NCBI GenBank assembly: GCA_002898375.1
Contig: BEIN01000025.1
Span: 1 to 34,175 of the forward strand
DNA length: 34,175 bases
DNA from: a bacterium HR37
GTDB taxonomy: Bacteria; Desulfobacterota_D; UBA1144; Nemesobacterales; CSP1-2
Direction: 5' to 3'
Each line of letters begins with the position of its first letter. Positions within the stretch are counted from its first letter, which is position 1. Positions 22,392 through 33,988 of the stretch are shown here, piece by piece. The translations under genes were made by a program, and so were the position numbers. The notes beneath the pieces are model-generated. The model was not told where the DNA came from, searched no databases, and was given only the letters and a program-made list of their open reading frames with translations.

Positions 22392-25300
22392 TTAATGAAT
22401 TATCCACTCAGATGATAACATCTCAGCTTGTTGCAGTACAGTTTGTGTTGCCTTCTCCTGCTTATCCGGGGGATATCCATATCTGCGCAGAATGCGTTTA
22501 ACTAAAACCCTAAGCTGTGCACGAACATTCTCTCTTACCATCCAATCTACAGTTACATTATTCCTTAAAGTTCTTACCAACTCCTGAGCTATAGTACGGA
22601 GAGTTGGCTCACCAAGTACCTTAACTGCGCTATCGTTAGCCTCAAGTGCATCATAGAAGGCTAATTCTTCATCAGTAAGCCCCATCTCCTCACCTCGCCT
22701 GTTAGCCTCACGCATCTCCCTAGCAAGCCTTATTAGTTCCTCTATCACCTGTACTGCGTCAATAGCTCGGCTCTGGTAGCGCCTGATTGCATCCTCTAAC
22801 ATTTCAGAAAAAGACCGAGCCTGAACCAGATTCTTTCTTCGACAGATGCGGATCTCACCTGAGATAAGCTTGTGTAGGACCTCAACAGCTAAATTTTTCT
22901 GAGGTATATTCCTAACCTCAGCCAGGAATTCATCAGATAGAATAGAAATATCCGGTTTCTTAAGACCCGCTGCTTCAAATAAGTCAACTACCCCTTCTGA
23001 CACCACAGCACGGGAGATAATCTGGCGGATAGCATGGTCAAGCTCCTCTTCAGGCTTAGGATCCCCAGGTAACCGCTTAACAAGAGCTGCTCGCACGGCT
23101 TGGAAAAAAGCCACATCATCACGGATCTTAAGTGCTTCCTCATGAGGAATTGCCAGGGCAAATGCTTTTGAGAGTTCCTGTACAGCTTGAAGTAAGCGTT
23201 CCTTTCCATCCCTCTGTGCCAGTATATGTTCCTGGGCAGCTGGCAAAAGCTTTAATCGTTCTTCCGGTTTGCCTGTTTTCCACAGTGACCAATCAAAACC
23301 GTAAAACAGCTCACAGCATATTTCGTATTTTTCTCTCATTACCTCAACCGCTTCTTCCTGTGAAATGGTTGTTTTTCCTCTACCTCCGCTTTCAGTATAA
23401 GTGGCAAGTGCCGCTTTGAGTTCGTATGCTATACCTATATAGTCCACAACCAAACCTCCAGGCTTATCACGGAACACCCGGTTTACACGAGCTATAGCCT
23501 GCATCAAGGTATGTCCACGCATAGGCTTATCGATATACATCGTGTGTAGACTCGGACAATCAAAGCCCGTAAGCCACATGTCACGTACTATAACAATCTT
23601 AAAGGAATCCTTGGGGTCACGAAAGCGGTTTGCAAGGAATTCTCTTCTCTGCTTATTCCGAATGTGAAGCTGCCACTCAGGTGGATCCGAAGCTGAACCG
23701 GTCATAACTACCTTAACCACCCCCTTATCATCATCCCCACTATGCCACTCTGGTCGAAGTCGAATGATTTCGTTATACAATTCCACACATATACGTCTGC
23801 TCATACACACAACCATAGCTTTTCCATCCATTGCCTCCAGTCTATGCTCAAAGTGCTCGACAACATCCTTAGCAATAAGCTTTAGCCGTTTCTCAGCACC
23901 GACTATAGCTTCTAGTTGTGCCCACTTGGTTTTTAAATGTTCTTTATGCTCGATTTCTTCATTTTCCGTAACTTCTTCAAATTCCTCATCAATCTTAGGT
24001 TTAAGCTCCTCCGGGAGATTTAGCTTTGCCAACCGACTTTCATAAAATATTGGAACTGTAGCACCATCCTCAACTGCTCGCTGTATATCATAGATAGATA
24101 TATAGTCACCAAAAACCTGACGTGTATTACGATCATCCAGCTCAAGTGGTGTACCAGTAAAGGCAATAAAGGAGGCATTGGGAAGTGCATCACGCATATG
24201 GCGAGCAAATCCATCAATAAAGTCATACTGACTACGATGGGCTTCGTCAGCTATAACAACAATATTACGGCGTTCTGAAAGCACAGGGTGTTTATCACTC
24301 TTTTCTTCTGGGAAAAACTTTTGAATCGTTGTAAAAATTACCCCTCCGGACTCACGCTGTAGCAGTTCCCTAAGGTGTGCACGACTTTCAGCCTGTATAG
24401 GTGGCTGACGCAAAAGCTCCTGACATCGAGAAAACACTCCAAAAAGCTGGTCATCTAGGTCATTTCGGTCAGTAAGTACAACAATAGTAGGATTCTTCAT
24501 TCTGGGCTCCCGGATAATACAGCCAGCATAAAATACCATGGTAAGGCTTTTCCCGGATCCCTGAGTATGCCAGATAACGCCAATACGACGGTCACCAGGC
24601 TTACCACCTGGCCTTTTTCCTGCTTCATATATACCTGGTTCCTCTGACACCTTAAGTTCCTCAATTTGAAGGTTCGAAGCACGAAGTGTTTCCTTTAGGG
24701 CAACATGCACCGCATGGAACTGATGGTATCCTGCTACTTTCTTTTCCAGCTTACCGCTACCATCGTCTTCAAACACAATAAAATCACGGATCAAACTTAA
24801 AAAACGCCTTTTATCAAAGACACCTTTAAGCAAAACCTCAAGTTGCGAGGTCCCAATATCTTCTATCTCCATACCAGATATAGTCCGCCAGGGTTTAAAC
24901 CATTCCCACCCAGCAGTAATAGTTCCCATCCGGGCCTCCAATCCATCAGATACAACCAGCAGCTCATTAAACGTAAAAAGATTGGAAAGTTCCGCTTTAT
25001 AGGTCTGAAGTTGTTTAAAAGCAGTCCATATGTTAGCTTCCTCATCAGTTGGGTTCTTAAGCTCAATAACTACAAGAGGCAAACCATTAACGAAAAGAAC
25101 TACATCTGGCCGTCTCGTATGCTGCCCTTCACTAACAGTAAATTGGTTGACTGCAAGCCAATCGTTATTTTCAGGTTCCTCAAAATCTATTACCTTCACC
25201 TGTGCACCAGCAATAGAGCCATCTAAGCGGCGATACTCTACAGTTACACCATCTACAAGCATACGGTGAAAAGCACGGTTTCTCATCTCCAAGGTAGTAC

Positions 25301-25526
25301 CTTGAGGATTGGTAATACGGCGGAAAGCGTCCTCTAAGGCCTCTGTAGGCAAATCAGGATTTAGTCGAGCCAAAGCATCTCGTAGCCGCTGAGCCAAGAC
25401 TACCTCGCGGTAGTCCGTGCGCTCAGCAAAGAGTCCGTCCGGTGCAACCTCCGACCCGTGCTTGACCGTCCAGCCGAGGGACTCGAGCCAAGCGAGGGTG
25501 ACAAATTCAACGGTGGATTCCTTCAT
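22392..25526 (-). CDS. hsdR: Type I restriction endonuclease, R subunit
   Basis: A 1,044-residue motor and nuclease subunit. The N-terminal PD-(D/E)xK nuclease shows D141 in [10 protein letters not shown] and E155-x-K157 in VIELKNP. The helicase follows with Walker [19 protein letters not shown] (DEAD-box-like motif II), FTGTPLE (motif III), and [13 protein letters not shown]...[10 protein letters not shown] (motifs V-VI). A long helical C-terminus docks on the methylase. Its ATG overlaps the stop of the OLD gene (ATGA), so it is the last gene of the defence operon. The first 50 or so codons are clearly more GC-rich than the rest, continuing the composition of the OLD gene. Confidence 0.96.
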
Positions 25527-27180
25527 GCTCCTCTCTCCGCCGATTTCTTAACCTCTTCCACGGCCTCTACAAGCGGCCTAAGACCCTTAAGATCCTTAGG
25601 CAAATTGTGTAAGTCAACCTCGCCCAATTTCTCGAAGATCCGCCGCGGTTTGTCAGTGGCATTGCGACTGATACCGAGCACATCTTCGAGACTCGGCTTG
25701 ATAACGAACAGTTTGCCTTCCTTGCCCACAGCGTCTTGAATCCGTTGGTTCTTCACCTGCTCTGCCTTGTTTTCGCTTTTGATCTTCGACCGTGTTTCAT
25801 TATCGGCGTTAGGAGGGATGGATCTTACGTCCTTGTCGTGGATAACAACGAACGAGATTGCAAGCGCCTTGCAAACGCGCACAAAGAGTTCAATGCCTGC
25901 TTTGCCGCCACAATCAACTACTGCGATCCCTTCGGCATCTAAATCGAGGTTCAGTTTCTCGGCAACCAGTTGAACCGCCACGCGATCACCGTAACCTTCA
26001 ACCAAGAGAGCCTTGCTTGCAAAGAGCAGTTCATTTCGTGCAGTGTCGAACCGGTTCCCAATCTTGAAATTATCCCTTGCTTCTGCGAGTTGAGCATGAT
26101 CGGACTCTTGAACAAAAGCTACGGTAGTCTTGCCCTGAGTTCGGCGGACCAACCGCAGCGTTTCAAATCGGCTCGCGTCTGCAAAAATCGGTGAGTGAGT
26201 CGAGTAAATAACTTGGTTTTTATCAGCCATCTCGCAAAGCAAGCGATAGAAATACCGCTGTGCCTGAGGGTGCAGATACATTTCCGGTTCCTCAATCACG
26301 ACCGTACCGAAATCTCCACCGAGTTGGCGAAACGCCTCAAAGATTCCAACGACCATAGCGCTTTGGATTCCAAGACCGAGCTCTCCTCCCGGAACCGGCA
26401 GTCCTGATTCTCGATACTCCAGCCTTAGCGAGTTAAACGGGTTGGCAGGGTCAGCGAATCCAAAATAGATCTCTACGCCTTCGATTGCTGAGCGCCCGAG
26501 AAATCCCAGCATTCGTTTCGTGGTGTCCGCGATAGTTTGTTCAATCCGCCTGACCTGTTCGGTCCTCAGCGTTTCCATTGCCAGCTCGTACTTGGCCTTG
26601 AAGTCGTCCACTGCTTGAAATTCCTTGCGCGCTTTCTGGAGAAGTCGGCCCAAAATGGAGCCTCGCACTGTAGGTAAGTGTTGAGCGAGGCTGCGGCGAT
26701 GGTCCACGAAGAGAATTCGCACGTGGTCTCGAAGTTCCGTGCCCACCGTCAGGGGTCGAAACTGGGTCTTCTGTCCTTTCTGCGGCTGGGAAACTGCAAC
26801 GTTGGGCACTTCCCCTTTTTCGCTAAGCGGCACGAGATCAACATGTAAGTCGCCTGCTTCGCCCCACGTACCCGACTTCTTGTAGGGTTTACAGGTTAAG
26901 CGAAGGGCTGTGACCTGGTGCTTTTTTGAAAGAGTATCGAGATGTTCGTAGAGGGGGTCAAACCAGACTGTGATTTCGATGTCGCGGCTGGTATCGAATG
27001 CGGTGAAGTCCTCAGGAATCCGGAAACTGCGTATACTTGGCCAAACATCTCCACAAACCAAATTGATAGCCCGAAGAAGTGTTGTCTTACCTGAGCCGTT
27101 GGGGCCGACAAACGCAGTAAGAGGCGCAAGGGGAACATCCACTTCTTCCAGACAGCGGAAATTCTTGACACATAAGCGGG

Positions 27181-27187
<7 letters not shown>
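25523..27187 (-). CDS. OLD-family ATPase-nuclease (AAA + TOPRIM)
   Basis: A 554-residue ABC-type ATPase with a TOPRIM nuclease domain. Walker A is GPNGSGKTT at 28-36, the signature region is [11 protein letters not shown], Walker B is [12 protein letters not shown], and the switch His is in YSTHSPIF. The TOPRIM domain begins [12 protein letters not shown], with the acidic pair in [11 protein letters not shown] proteins are anti-phage DNA nucleases. There is no UvrD-type helicase next to it, so it is not a Gabija pair; it sits inside the hsd operon between hsdS and hsdR. I chose ATG 27187, which overlaps the hsdS stop by 7 bases; the frame is open further upstream inside hsdS but that is a GC-rich shadow. 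Confidence 0.92.
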
Positions 27188-28488
<1,301 letters not shown>

Positions 28489-28523
28489 GATCGTGCTCCT
28501 TAGAGAAAGGACTTTACTCACGT

Positions 28524-29030
28524 TCATAACATGATCCCTAATACACGCATCATTTGAAAAGTATCAATACATGGAACGTTCAACGCCCGACAAACGTCGG
28601 GGATTTTGATTTTATGTCTAGCTCCTGGCGCAGATACTTCCTGCGTTACCACCACACACCCATTCGCTATAGCATACGATACTACCCAAGCGTCTGCGTT
28701 GTCTGCCCTAGCAAACTCAGTCTTAGCTGCATTCGTATATTGACTTTGATTCATTGCCCATTGGATTACCTGCCCATAAGCAACCAGCACGTTGTTATCA
28801 GCGGTGCTCTCAAATGAGCCGTGAAAATGATTGCCTGCCCAAGTAGCCAACTGATCTTTGCTGCGGTCGATCTCATTTTTCACCCGATCAATGCTCACTA
28901 TACGTCTGGCCTGGCTGTGTTGAAGGAGAGCCTTCCAAAAGCTAGGAGCAATATCAAAGCTGTAATATGTTCGGGCTGCTTGGGTAAAGACACTTGTATC
29001 CAACACATAACAGGGATGCACTAAGTTCAT
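28524..29030 (-). CDS. DUF4411 PIN-like toxin
   Basis: A 168-residue PIN-type ribonuclease fold. YVLDTSVF gives the first catalytic Asp (D11), E53 lies in VKNEIDR, D113 in DNADAWVVSYAIANG, and VVVTQE follows before the C-terminal helix. The block NGCVVVTQEVSAPGARHKIKIPDVCRALNVPCIDTF is typical of DUF4411. It overlaps the XRE/ImmA gene by 4 bases (ATGA). Together they look like a toxin-antitoxin pair. It lies inside the hsd operon between hsdM and hsdS. Confidence 0.85.
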   Translation of the reverse strand: MNLVHPCYVLDTSVFTQAARTYYSFDIAPSFWKALLQHSQARRIVSIDRVKNEIDRSKDQLATWAGNHFHGSFESTADNNVLVAYGQVIQWAMNQSQYTNAAKTEFARADNADAWVVSYAIANGCVVVTQEVSAPGARHKIKIPDVCRALNVPCIDTFQMMRVLGIML

Positions 29031-30175
29031 CGTAGGTCTCCTAGGAGATACTCGACAAAGCGCTCGAATGTACGCCCATAGAGCCCTGTGAGCCTGTAAG
29101 CTTCGTGATAAAGCAGGGAACCTTCGCGTACCGCTCGAACGACAGTCTCCGCAAAACGTCTTCCGAGCCGTAGCATTTGGGTTGAATAGAAGTTCCCACC
29201 TTCTTGACGGGAAGTAGAAGCCAGTCGCTGGTGCTTTTGGTATTCCTCGTAGAAAGCGAAAAAGTCATCTCTGGTAATAAGCTCAAGGTCTAATGCTCGT
29301 CGGGCTGCTACAATCTCGCTTACCTTGAAATAGCGCGCGATAGCCTGAAACCGCTCTTTTTGTTTTTGGATAGAGGGCCAGAGACGTTGTAACTCCTGGG
29401 CAGGGACCAGAAATTCTGCAGCAACGAGGTTGCAAAATTCTTCTGTCCTATCATTCGCAGGTCGCAGTTCCTGGAGGTCAAATGCTGCGCTACTGCCGAC
29501 CCAGACATGCGCAAGCTCATGTGCCAATGTAAACATTTGCGCTGCCCTGCTATCATTCCCATTAATGAAGACCAAAGGTGCATATTCATCTACAAGCACA
29601 AACCCACGGAATTCCTCTATAGATAACTTGCGCCGGGTATTGTTTCCCACGATGCTGCTTGTAACTACAATTATGCCGGCATCTTCTGCTCTATCTTGTA
29701 AAGCGCGTAGCGCGACAGTCCACGTTGGCTGAGTGTTTGCCCAGTTTACATTTACCCCTAGAGTTTCTCGTATTTTCAAAGCCACTCTCACGGGGTAGTC
29801 ACCTACACTCACCGAACGGACAAATGGGAGAGGCTCCTGCCCTTGCTCGATCAGATATTCCCTCATCCACGCCTGACGCCTCTGCATCATGTAGATGGTC
29901 TCTAATAATTCAGGGCTTGGGAACTTTTCCGGCAGCCGTTGTGTGGTTCTAAAGTAAGGGATAGGGAGTTGCTCTTTGGGAAGTTCGGGAAGAAAGAGAT
30001 AGCCGAAAGGTACAGAGGCAGCCTTAGCAAAGGCTTCCAGCTGGCGAAGCGTAGGTTTGTCCTCTCCAGAAAGCCACCTATCAAGACGCGGGAACTTGTG
30101 CCATATCTCTGGTCCAGCACGCTCAACCGCCCAGGCTAAAACCTTTAGGTTGGGGCTAACTCTAATAGTTGCCAT
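29027..30175 (-). CDS. XRE/ImmA-IrrE fusion: regulator-peptidase antitoxin
   Basis: A 382-residue two-domain protein. Residues about 8-65 resemble an XRE-type helix-turn-helix followed by [13 protein letters not shown], as in COG2856 proteins. The C-terminal zinc peptidase has H219-E220-x2-H223 in [11 protein letters not shown], with a later acidic residue in [18 protein letters not shown]. Such proteins act as cleavable or cleaving regulators and are paired with small toxins; here the partner is the DUF4411 gene directly downstream. Its ATG overlaps the hsdM stop by 14 bp, which argues for translation from the hsd mRNA. Confidence 0.88.
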
Positions 30176-31772
30176 AGCCCAACTCCTTCAGGTTCTTCCA
30201 AATCTCTTCCTCCAGCCTCCGACCCTCAGCCATTTGTTCCTGCAGTTGCGTTGCAAGACGTCGCATCTTTTCCTCAAAGGGCTCGTCGTCTTCGTCCTCT
30301 ACAACCGCCCCCACGTAGCGGCCGGGAGTGAGTACGTAGCCGTGCTTGCGGATCTCTTCGAGCGTGGCGCTCTTGCAGAAGCCGGGGATATCCTCGTATT
30401 TACCCGCATCCTCCTCACCTCGCCATGCATGGTAGGTACGGGCAATCTTTTGAATCTCTTCGTCGGTAAGCTCCCGGTGAACACGATCTACCATACGACC
30501 CATCTTGCGAGCATCAATAAAGAGCACTTCTCCACGGCGATCACGCAAAGGTTTTTTCTGACCAACGGGTGGACGGCCACTTTTATCACGAGCAATAAAC
30601 CAAAGACAGGCCGGAATCTGGGTAGAATAAAAGAGCTTATCAGGTAAAGCAACCATGCAATCTACAAGGTCTGCCTCAATAATGTTTTTTCTAATCTCCC
30701 CCTCACCTGATTGGTTTGATGACATAGAACCATTTGCCAGCACAAAACCAGCATACCCTGTAGGAGCCAGGTGATAAATTATATGCTGTACCCAGGCAAA
30801 GTTAGCATTGCGTAGAGGTGGAGTACCAAACTTCCAGCGCTTATCCTCACGAAGTCTCTCACCACCCCACTCTTTCATGTTAAAAGGGGGATTTGCCAGT
30901 ATATAGTCAGCTCTAAGGTCAGGAAAACAGTCATTAAGAAACGTATCACCCTGCTCTATCCTGCCATCAATACCACGTATAGCAAGATTCATCTTGGCTA
31001 GACGCCATGTTGTATAGTTTAATTCCTGACCGTAGATACTAATACGACTGCGAGCACGCCCTCCATTTCCATTACCCGTAGCATGTGCCTCAATAAACTC
31101 GACAGACTGAACAAACATTCCAGAAGAACCACAACACGGGTCATATACACGGCCTTCAAAAGGCTCAAGCATCTCTACAAGCAACTTAACAACACACCTT
31201 GGAGTGTAAAACTCCCCTCCTTTCTTTCCCTCAGCACTTGCAAACTGCGCTAAGAAGTACTCATAAACACGTCCAAGTACATCTCTAGAGCGAGCTTCAG
31301 CATCACCCACACGGATATTAGAAATAAGATCAATAAGCTGTCCCAGCCGCATTTTATCCAAAGCAGGACGGGAATAATCCTTGGGAAGTACCCCCTTTAG
31401 AGATGGATTATCACTCTCTATAGCCTCCATAGCTTTATCCACAATCTCACCAATTTGGGGCTGACGGGCATTTTCACGTAAGTATTCCCAGCGAGCCTCA
31501 GGTGGTACCCAGAAAACATTATGAGCTCGATACTCATCAGGATCCTCAGGGTCAGCATATGGCTCCTGCAAAAGACGCTCTTGATGCTCCTTAAACGCAT
31601 CAGATATGTATTTAAGAAAAATTAAGCCTAGAACTACATGCTTGTATTCAGCAGCATCCATGCTACCACGTAGAGCATCAGCCATACGCCAGAGCTCAGC
31701 TTCATAGCCAATTGTAGCACCACTGTTATTTTTATTTGAAGTTGACTTCCTGTTCTTACTTGCCATATCCAA
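30162..31772 (-). CDS. hsdM: Type I restriction-modification methylase subunit
   Basis: A 536-residue N6-adenine methyltransferase. The N-terminal HsdM domain includes [34 protein letters not shown]. The SAM site is [10 protein letters not shown] (211-220) and the catalytic motif IV is NPPFN (294-298). It methylates host DNA with HsdS and forms the restriction complex with HsdR. It starts 10 bases after the hepT stop. The last 110 or so codons are more GC-rich than the rest of the gene, a second composition boundary within the operon. Confidence 0.96.
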
Positions 31773-31782
31773 GCCCCCTTAA

Positions 31783-32031
31783 CTAATTTTTCTCCAAATC
31801 AGCAAGAATCCGTTCCACGCGTTCCTTAAGCATAGGAAGATCCCGAATAATTATCTGCCATATCTCCTCCAGGTCTACGCCAAAGTATTCGTGCACAAGA
31901 ATATTTCTCATGGCAACGATTTGCGCCCAAGGTACCTCTTTCTCCAATGCTTTGCGTCTCAGTGCCTTATACTTCTCGATACGGGAAATGGCATTCAGAA
32001 TATCCCGAAGCCGTTCTCCTGGATCTCTCAT
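31783..32031 (-). CDS. HepT-like HEPN protein with internal deletion
   Basis: An 82-residue HEPN protein. The RNase motif R-x4-H is intact in AMRNILVHEYFGVD, including the Tyr two residues after the His that MntA AMPylates in known pairs. Standard HepT is about 110-140 residues. Here the N-terminal helix RDILNAISRIEKY runs almost straight into EVPWAQI, and the usual middle segment with its IGEA motif is missing. It overlaps the mntA stop by 4 bases (ATGA). It is either a minimal active form or a disabled toxin. Confidence 0.85.
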   Translation of the reverse strand: MRDPGERLRDILNAISRIEKYKALRRKALEKEVPWAQIVAMRNILVHEYFGVDLEEIWQIIIRDLPMLKERVERILADLEKN

Positions 32032-32318
32032 AACGGTACGGCCTCCCGAAGTACACGTTCTTTAATACGGGCTTTAATGCTCCGCTCACTAACCACACCT
32101 ACCTTACACCCAAGAAGCTCCTGAAGCTCAAGCCAGAGTCCTGCATGGTCCAAGAGACTCCGGCCAGGCTCAAAGTCAACAATTAAATCAATGTCACTCT
32201 TCTCGTCTGCTGTTCCGCGGGCAATAGAGCCAAAAACCCTTACATCCCTAGCCCCGTACTTAGCACAGAGGTAAAGAATCTCCTCACGCTTCTCTTTGAG
32301 CAGTTGTTCAAACCTCAT
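32028..32318 (-). CDS. MntA-like minimal nucleotidyltransferase antitoxin
   Basis: A 96-residue MNT-family protein. The signature GSIARGTADEKSDIDLIVDF contains G-S-x10-D-x-D, the metal- and ATP-binding core. In characterised MntA/HepT pairs the enzyme transfers AMP to the HEPN toxin and silences it. AAGGAAG lies before the ATG at 32318. It is the first gene of the long defence operon and ends in an ATGA overlap with the HEPN gene. Confidence 0.9.
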   Translation of the reverse strand: MRFEQLLKEKREEILYLCAKYGARDVRVFGSIARGTADEKSDIDLIVDFEPGRSLLDHAGLWLELQELLGCKVGVVSERSIKARIKERVLREAVPL

Positions 32319-32380: not shown

Positions 32381-32610
32381 TATCCGCAAAGGCCCTGAAA
32401 CAATCAAGTGTATTAAATCCTCTTACAATAAAAAATCCAGATTCTGTTAACCGCTTTATATCACAAGACAGGATGTAAAATGTTAATAAGTGTGTTTATC
32501 ATCCTTCACTTCTAAGAGGTCATTGTTAGTTATACCTTCTGGTACGAGGAAAGAATTACTAAAATACCCTCTTTTTTGTTCTAAGGCCTTTTCACCTGAG
32601 ACCAAAGCAA

Positions 32611-32623
32611 AAACCGTAGCAAT
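32611..32623. repeat. 13-bp direct repeat, left copy (right copy 32841-32853)
   Basis: aaaccgtagcaat occurs here and at 32841-32853, on opposite sides of the tRNA-Pro remnant. The core gtagcaatgaa at the left copy is repeated again at 32858-32868. This could be an integrase or excisionase binding site. The rest of the gap 32381-32671 shows no gene that I can support. Confidence 0.6.
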
Positions 32624-32671
32624 GAAGAAATGGAGAAAGTTTAATGTATCGTAAGTCCCTGAAATCATTTA

Positions 32672-32718
32672 TCGGGGTGGGGGGACTTGAACCCCCGGCC
32701 TTTGCGTCCCGAAGGCAA
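32672..32718 (-). other. 3' half of tRNA-Pro(CGG): attachment-site remnant
   Basis: Read on the minus strand from 32718: anticodon stem-loop TTGCC-TTCGGGA-CGCAA with anticodon CGG (32711-32709), variable region, a perfect T arm GGGGG-TTCAAGT-CCCCC, acceptor strand CACCCCG and discriminator A at 32672. The expected 5' half, starting CGGGGTG with the D arm, is absent; AT-rich repeats take its place. One pair of the anticodon stem is C-C instead of C-G. Such 3' tRNA pieces mark the distal end of elements integrated at tRNA genes. The element would then lie to the right. Confidence 0.85.
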
Positions 32719-32723
32719 TTCCA

Positions 32724-32763
32724 TGTTTTTATATGACTTCATACAAATTTATATGAATTTATA
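32724..32763. repeat. Four phased 10-bp repeats, cluster 1
   Basis: TGTTTTTATA, TGACTTCATA, CAAATTTATA and TGAATTTATA follow each other without gaps, directly beside the tRNA-Pro remnant. The common form is YNNNTTTATA with a period of one helical turn. Confidence 0.8.
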
Positions 32764-32796
32764 TAACCCACTGAAATTAAACAATTTTTTAAATTG

Positions 32797-32836
32797 CGTT
32801 TTTATACCTCTTTATACCAATTTATACAAATTTATA
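32797..32836. repeat. Four phased 10-bp repeats, cluster 2
   Basis: CGTTTTTATA, CCTCTTTATA, CCAATTTATA and CAAATTTATA, again without gaps. The cluster lies 33 bp from cluster 1 and starts with the same GTTTTTATA unit, so the whole array appears duplicated. Confidence 0.8.
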
Positions 32837-32840
32837 ACAC

Positions 32841-32853
32841 AAACCGTAGCAAT
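32841..32853. repeat. 13-bp direct repeat, right copy
   Basis: aaaccgtagcaat, identical to 32611-32623, followed by a partial third copy gtagcaatgaa at 32858-32868. Confidence 0.6.
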
Positions 32854-32898
32854 TTCTGTAGCAATGAAATGTGACCACTGCACTTTCTTTGCAAAGAA

Positions 32899-33597
32899 CT
32901 ACCTTCCTGCCTTCCTAAAACCTTCCCTTTGTGCTTCCTCTTCTGTAGCAAAGCACCTTTCAGGCTTTGTCCTATCGTAGAATGCACTACCTGGAACATG
33001 ATATATCCTCTCCCCTCTTCTATTAATATTCCCCTTTATAGGCCTCTCAGGAGAACATGAAAACCCATAGCTTTGGGTTTGAGAACTCGATTCTACCTGC
33101 AATTGGCTTTCTGTTTCACCCCAAAGCCCTTTCCCATTTTCTACAGCATACCTATAAGCTTTTCTTAACCTCTCTTCATACTTAACATTTGGCGGAATCG
33201 TAAGAAGCATGGCATACCCCTCACGGACAATAACCTCATTTAGCATCCTCCCATCAGGAAGCCATACATAGGCAAGGGTTCTTCCATATTTATCCTTAGG
33301 CTGAACATCAAGCTCTATCTCTACTTTAGTCCCAACAGGTATAAGGGATTGGGTAAACTTCTTTGCCCTCCTTCCCAACTCAAGTATGGTTTTTGTATCA
33401 CCCAAAGACCTCTGCTTTTCGATATGATGATTAAGAGAGCTTTCAGGGGTATCTATCCCTATAAGCCTTATCTTCTCTCCTGAGCAAAGGAAGGTATCCC
33501 CATCATAAACCTTTTCAACCACACATTGATAGGCATGGGTTATCTGGGGAAGTAAAGAGAAAAGAAGTATAAGAAAAAACAGTTTTGTTTTTTTCAT
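32899..33597 (-). CDS. Secreted thermonuclease (SNase family)
   Basis: A 232-residue exported nuclease. The signal segment ends near THAYQ. The SNase domain (24-155) has VYDGDTFLC, the active-site IRLIGIDTPES (Arg, Asp, Glu) and DKYGRTLAYVW with the second catalytic Arg. A C-terminal module of about 50 residues, with CSPERPIKGNINRRGERIYHVPG and a basic RCFATEEEAQREGFRKA tail, is common in secreted SNase proteins and may aid DNA binding. GGGAGGG precedes the ATG at 33597. It lies on the element side of the tRNA remnant. Confidence 0.92.
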   Translation of the reverse strand: MKKTKLFFLILLFSLLPQITHAYQCVVEKVYDGDTFLCSGEKIRLIGIDTPESSLNHHIEKQRSLGDTKTILELGRRAKKFTQSLIPVGTKVEIELDVQPKDKYGRTLAYVWLPDGRMLNEVIVREGYAMLLTIPPNVKYEERLRKAYRYAVENGKGLWGETESQLQVESSSQTQSYGFSCSPERPIKGNINRRGERIYHVPGSAFYDRTKPERCFATEEEAQREGFRKAGR

Positions 33598-33655
33598 GCT
33601 TTTTATCCCTCCCTAATTCTTGATTTTTTTATTATTTGTATTACATTATAGCATT

Positions 33656-33988
33656 ATGTATTACAACACATCATCTAAGGAAAAAATACTTACAGTCAGG
33701 ATCTCTAAAACCCTTGCAGAGAGAATAGATAATACCGCAAAGAAAGTGGGGATAACAAGAAGTGAGCTAATCAAAAAAGGAATAGAGAAAGTACTTGAAG
33801 AAATGGAAGATAAAGATACGGATGAAATAAAAAGAGCTACAGCTTTGATGATGCAAGGGAAATCAGTAAAGCTACCTCCCTCTGTATGGAAAGATATAGA
33901 GAGCAAACTAAAAGAATCCGTTCCAATCCATCATACGTTGAAAGAGGCGATGGAATTCATAAGAGGTAGAGAGTGGCAAGAAGACTAA
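33656..33988 (+). CDS. Ribbon-helix-helix antitoxin
   Basis: About 110 residues. The N-terminal KILTVRISKTLAERIDNTAKKVGITRSELIKKGIEKVLEEM is a CopG/Arc-type ribbon-helix-helix. The charged C-terminal half would contact the toxin. I place the start at ATG 33656; the frame is open 12 codons further to a TTG with no ribosome binding site. No ribosome binding site is seen at 33656 either, so a near-leaderless transcript is possible. The stop overlaps the start of the PIN gene by 16 bp, the usual arrangement of antitoxin before toxin. Confidence 0.8.
   Translation: MYYNTSSKEKILTVRISKTLAERIDNTAKKVGITRSELIKKGIEKVLEEMEDKDTDEIKRATALMMQGKSVKLPPSVWKDIESKLKESVPIHHTLKEAMEFIRGREWQED

Follow-up and report, generated by a model that had tools for sequence, protein, structure and literature searches.

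Helically phased repeat blocks beside a tRNA-Pro attachment core as a probable excisionase-binding array of an integrative element

Two blocks of 10-bp repeats, each of four units in helical phase, stand beside a fragment of a tRNA gene, and the question that this locus raises is which protein such an array would serve. The window, by which we mean the whole 34,175-nucleotide stretch of DNA that was analyzed, is one complete contig (C25) of a 2.42-Mb genome in 33 contigs. An earlier note had read the region as the arm of an intasome with cooperative binding sites for an excisionase, a recombination directionality factor (RDF) or a nucleoid protein. Our analysis bears out the attachment arm; the binding protein is inferred, and an excisionase is favored. 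Based on comparisons of sequence, we hold, with a probability of about 0.75, that a temperate element integrating into tRNA genes would use the eight phased units, on its integrase-distal arm, as a binding array for an RDF (excisionase, Xis).

Layout of the attachment region

The features of the region, in window coordinates, are as follows.

32609-32644, plus strand: integrase remnant of 11 C-terminal codons (KNRSNEEMEKV) plus the stop codon, identical to the C6 integrase 3' end
32645-32671, plus strand: inner part of the integrase-side arm (GTAAGTCCCTGAAATCATT), 100% identical to C6
32672-32713, minus strand: tRNA-Pro(CGG) 3' half, the attachment-site core, identical to C6:7431-7504 up to 32713
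32724-32763, plus strand: repeat block 1, four 10-bp units (TGTTTTTATA, TGACTTCATA, CAAATTTATA, TGAATTTATA)
32764-32796, no strand: spacer between block 1 and block 2, 33 bp, A/T-rich
32797-32836, plus strand: repeat block 2, four 10-bp units (CGTTTTTATA, CCTCTTTATA, CCAATTTATA, CAAATTTATA)
32844-32868, plus strand: CCGTAGCAATTTCTGTAGCAATGAA, two direct repeats of 12 bp, presumably the arm-type sites for integrase on the distal arm, with the same pair in sister elements

The attachment site that had been proposed beside the repeats was demonstrated through a second copy in the same genome. The 105 bp at 32609-32713 are identical to an integrase 3' end plus a tRNA-Pro(CGG) 3' half at C6, where an intact 370-aa tyrosine integrase with a Phage_integrase Pfam match (C6:6291-7403) is followed by an intact tRNA-Pro(CGG) (C6:7431-7504). 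A tyrosine-integrase attachment site in a tRNA is expected to show, as it does here, a 3' tRNA fragment that matches letter for letter an intact tRNA lying next to an integrase gene. The adjoining core is of tRNA origin as had been suggested, but comparison with the intact gene identified it as the 3' half of tRNA-Pro and not a whole tRNA. The first mismatch to the intact tRNA-Pro is at 32714, following the anticodon loop letters TCCCGAA (32707-32713), and the crossover is therefore placed in the anticodon loop. Sequence similar to 32645-32671 is found beside the tRNA 3' ends of sister elements, at tRNA-Arg and tRNA-Ala junctions. Rightward from the core, the order is block 1, spacer, block 2 and the CCGTAGCAATTTCTGTAGCAA pair, such that the core is flanked in the window by an integrase-side arm on its left and a distal arm on its right. 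Judged by its identity to C6, 32609-32644 is evidently the integrase-side arm of a neighboring decayed element from which the tyrosine integrase has been deleted, and the two-arm arrangement would fit the junction of two tandem elements, the left one being without an integrase.

The two uninterrupted blocks of four were as originally described, and seven of the eight units conform to the proposed YNNNTTTATA; the second unit (32734) reads TTCATA. The 33-bp distance between the blocks proved exact, with block starts 73 bp apart, or about seven turns. What is rare here is the phasing. On its own, YNNNTTTATA occurs often (34 copies in the window versus 16 expected), whereas four phased TTTATA-N4 units with at most two mismatches occurred in the 34-kb contig only at blocks 1 and 2 and in none of 100 dinucleotide shuffles. 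Motif-free scoring returned the two blocks as the top two lag-10 stretches of the contig (z of 6.4 and 5.7). The distal arm of the window had a lag-10 z of 5.3, that is, direct repeats about one helix turn apart, as in an RDF array. Genome-wide, runs of three units in phase, with no more than one mismatch, were present only at the window site, at C24:32480-32505 and at C6:2768-2867 (minus strand), all three of which are attachment arms; equal frequency elsewhere, which by the earlier note would refute its reading, was thus not observed. An Rfam search of the window returned no match.

Conservation of the phasing across related elements

The same repeats lie at C24 beside a 3' fragment of tRNA-Arg(ACG), for which the intact tRNA-Arg and an integrase remnant are on C26, and C6:2727-2870 (minus strand) is a third, diverged copy with the layout of the window. 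When the arm of the window is aligned to that of C6, 44 of 48 TTTATA positions are identical (92%) versus 15 of 32 positions in the 4-bp linkers (47%; Fisher p = 1.4e-5): the phased positions are under constraint. The 33-bp spacer is identical at 25 of 33 positions (76%).

The distal arm carries a pair of the form CCGTAGCAA-N3-CTGTAGCAA, hereafter the GTAGCA pair, which recurs on both arms of related elements; the phased blocks sit between the crossover and this pair. One CCGTAGCAA arm-type site (32614-32622) is located within the integrase remnant codons of the window. In every family member found, the integrase-side pair lies 82 bp from the T-loop, within the final codons of the integrase gene, and the distal-side pair is placed beyond the phased blocks as seen from the core. 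The pair was also found beside tRNA genes in other phyla. Presence on both arms and recurrence beside tRNAs of other phyla are the expected look of integrase arm-type sites, and the GTAGCA pair is probably such a site. In the window, the phased blocks lie between the tRNA-Pro core (32672-32713) and the GTAGCA pair (32844-32868), where an excisionase array is expected. The places listed with a GTAGCA pair number 168, most of which look like chance matches within coding sequence.

Phased 10-bp units were found on distal arms only. The search of the other element end that had been proposed recovered the GTAGCA sites on the integrase-side arms without the phased repeats, and the att sites of related elements did carry phased repeats, on the same (distal) arm. 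The layout is the same at C24 and C6 and in G001, G002, G006, G003 (three elements) and G048, and sequence comparison makes it probable in L166/L196 and L210. The letters of the units differ at the same place: TTTGTATNNN types are found in L060, L078 and L080, TTGTGTTAAT/TTTGAGTTAA types in L083, L091 and L063, TTGWGT types in L274, and GC-rich units in an Elusimicrobia contig and a similar one (L166, L196) and in a viral contig (L210). Over 12 distal arms, the match excess at lags 10 and 20 gave Stouffer z values of 10.3 and 5.4, respectively, with the remaining lags from 5 to 23 between -2.2 and 2.7; nine integrase-side arms gave lag-10 values of 0.7 (core side) and 0.0 (integrase side). The arms tested comprised family members, arms adjoining the 3' half of a tRNA and a small number of others prominent in the periodicity ranking. 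Three of them (L166, L139 and L214) were picked by ranking on the same statistic, and the lag-10 z calculated by hand without them is still about 8.6; L210 was first noticed in that ranking, yet it qualifies independently by its tRNA half. The 10-bp phase was absent from L152, a distal arm by its tRNA signature that may not be one. Phasing is kept while letters change in several genera and, as far as the sequences indicate, probably in other phyla. An integrase search of viral contigs returned only distant relatives, mostly at about 30% identity, and phage records gave none above 60%, so that these searches yielded no free circular attP.

Several arms show rearrangements or additional features. 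At L060 (G002:C30, ~31881-31906), a distal arm is joined via a single GTAGCA pair straight to an integrase-side arm and tRNA, which looks like the scar left after an entire element was lost when its two arm-site pairs recombined with each other. At L063 (G003:C8, contig start), the distal arm is joined to a tRNA 5' half and not a 3' half, which suggests an opposite integration sense in some members. At L316 (8200-8420; G003:C321), a phased 10-bp array of TTTCACTGNN type lies beside a tRNA 3' fragment followed by integrase-side inner-arm sequence, and by these sequence features we regard it as a second tandem-element junction like that of the window. The spacer of several sister arms (L080, L083, L063 and L274; e.g., AACCCCTTGAATTTAAAGGGTTTTTT) has a hairpin resembling a terminator or palindromic site, which is weak in the window. 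This one genome holds more integrases or relics at tRNA-Arg(ACG), tRNA-Ala(CGC), tRNA-Arg(TCG) and another tRNA (L020, L021, L022 and L314), which is repeated colonization of its tRNA genes. On C6 (L018, 1-2590), cas1-like and cas2-like genes and a CRISPR-like array adjoin the decayed inverted distal arm (2727-2870), which suggests that an element of this kind may formerly have carried the CRISPR locus.

Candidate binding proteins and rival readings

By analogy, the array is best read as cooperative excisionase (RDF/Xis) sites of the same kind as those of lambda Xis, 186 Apl and P2 Cox. Lambda Xis sites are located on the integrase-distal arm, and this analogy, together with the restriction of the phased units to the distal arm, suggests excisionase sites; lambda has three (X1, X1.5 and X2) compared to the eight here. 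RDFs act on direct repeats with a period of one helix turn; the protomers bind these head to tail with high cooperativity and bend the att DNA (PMC7498355). Coliphage 186 Apl recognizes direct repeats of about 6 bp, at a spacing of 10 to 11 bp within att, and binds them cooperatively (PMC7498355); in our case, the binding is predicted. The 186 att site has five operators, whereas the window has two blocks of four that are 33 bp apart, and in the one sister element searched for an Apl-like array at its early promoter (G001), the repressor-excisionase intergenic region yielded no matching array. RdfS of ICEMlSym R7A covers a 40-bp att site towards one attP end as a tetramer, with 10 bp per monomer (PMC11963761), but has no consensus motif, unlike the clearly repeated and conserved units described here. 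Head-to-tail direct repeats are also bound by Streptomyces BldC, a MerR-like wHTH protein that recognizes AATT-N4-C repeats; a 36-bp site with four repeats is occupied by four subunits (PMC5859096). The letters AATTTATAC are found in several units of the window; however, BldC is a transcription regulator and not an att-site factor, and the resemblance may be coincidental.

Excisionase monomers would bind head to tail, one per 10-bp unit, in two runs of about four monomers each along a single helix face, and four 10-bp units twice, 73 bp apart, would fit two tetramer-sized runs. The array could then bend the distal arm, allowing integrase at the GTAGCA pair and the core to bridge into an excisive complex that would set the direction to excision. 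The 33-bp spacer would keep the two runs in phase with each other (73 bp, about seven turns) and may contain a site for a host bending protein.

We considered whether the phased units could instead be the integrase arm-type sites, as in the tandem sites of lambda or L5, with the GTAGCA pair being something else. Such sites can be tandem and about one turn apart, and the phased units are placed between the core and the arm end. This is unlikely given that the GTAGCA pair, and not the phased units, is common to both arms and constant across elements; the phased units are missing from the integrase-side arm, and so are not shared by both arms in the manner of lambda P'1-P'3, and their letters vary between elements in which the GTAGCA pair is unchanged. 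It is likewise improbable that the phased A/T tracts work by intrinsic curvature or through a host nucleoid protein (HU, IHF or H-NS type), even though a wedge model predicts bends of about 97 degrees for the window arm and 107 degrees for the C6 arm, where shuffles of the window arm give 41. Given that A/T-rich arms are predicted to be curved, part of the phasing could serve DNA shape, and intrinsic curvature may help in those arms. It does not explain the GC-rich arms (L166, L196 and L210), which retain the 10-bp phase, and several distal arms have no significant predicted curvature. The letters also change element by element, which a host protein is not expected to need. An excisionase is favored over a nucleoid protein because the letters vary between elements, the spacing is constant and GC-rich versions exist.

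That the units are operators of an element promoter, occupied by a cooperative repressor on direct repeats with excision incidental, is highly improbable. RDFs can double as repressors (PMC7498355), and BldC regulates promoters as a head-to-tail wHTH protein on direct repeats (PMC5859096), but the position of the array is fixed by the core and arm sites and not by a gene start, and no conserved gene start adjoins it across elements. A functionless tandem repeat that arose by chance or slippage could be imagined in A/T-rich surroundings where the bare motif is common. We give this almost no weight, since it is already contradicted by the rank of the blocks as the two most periodic stretches in 34 kb, by the restriction of phased units to attachment arms and by the conservation of phased positions while linkers diverged, with the phase kept across genera and probably phyla.

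Some sister elements encode a small HTH_17/PHROG_66 excisionase-type protein; most of these proteins match PHROG 66, "excisionase and transcriptional regulator." In one genome with three elements (G003), whose contigs are shared with records of Desulfobacterota bacterium AH_259_B03_O07, a 63-84-aa HTH_17 gene lies about 1-1.4 kb inside the distal arm, and in one of these elements the gene next to it matches a phage primase family. The presumed ends of the G001 element are 114 kb apart on one contig, and its 68-aa excisionase-type gene (L305:4769-4975), located beside the integrase, is the first gene of a rightward operon and is divergent from a repressor-like gene (XRE/S24-type by inspection). 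A profile of the excisionase-type proteins found its best sequence match among PDB structures, at an E-value of only 0.0027, in Gp37 (4j2n), which we take to be the Xis of mycobacteriophage Pukovnik. The sites and host of that phage are unrelated to ours. Pukovnik Xis binds tandem repeats one turn apart, according to work cited in PMC7498355. The best Foldseek match to an excisionase model (mean pLDDT 74) was the GIsul2 excisionase (8c3t), a weak one (best E-value 0.27). Three proteins of the genome with TTGTGTTAA-type units have LRWL-R-R in common in the presumed recognition region, and proteins from elements with other units differ there; that this difference tracks the unit type is suggestive only.

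No excisionase gene was detected by Pfam or profile in the window's own genome (G000), where the window's element is cut by the contig end, nor among the genes between the right-hand arm and the contig end. In G006 and G048, which have phased arms, none was recognized in the stretch read. The site in this genome is probably a relic, given that its distal arm is fused to the integrase-side arm of an integrase-less neighbor and that the genome yielded no excisionase gene. The right-hand element begins, as far as genes are concerned, with (32899-33988) an SNase-type nuclease gene (minus strand) and a ribbon-helix-helix gene (plus strand).

Wider meaning and neighboring cargo

The site is ordinary in kind; what is notable is a legible, conserved two-block layout with turnover of its sequence. 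Excisionase sites have so far been footprinted in a limited set of phages and ICEs, and here an array is visible by its helical phase. We tentatively propose, at somewhat less than even odds, that a 4+4 excisionase array is a conserved distal-arm module of a widespread CCGTAGCAA-marked integrase family in several phyla, in which the spacing is fixed and the letters follow the recognition helix. If letters do turn over with the recognition helix, excisionase sites would become readable from sequence alone. Constant spacing with varying letters would provide excisionase/site pairs for testing how these small proteins select their DNA targets, and att arms with their excisionases could be located in other genomes by scanning for periodicity next to GTAGCA arm sites. 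A full-text literature search for the lineage (a family including Candidatus Dadabacteria nzgw197) returned no relevant prophage-integrase work.

To the left of the attachment site, 22392-32318 is a defense-type island, all on the minus strand, with type I HsdM, HsdS and HsdR. Among the Hsd genes lie genes for an OLD/GajA-like ATPase and a DUF4411 protein and a third gene with capP/RmrA-type PADLOC matches, and the island also holds a HEPN/MNT-like pair. This island is possibly cargo of the decayed left-hand element.
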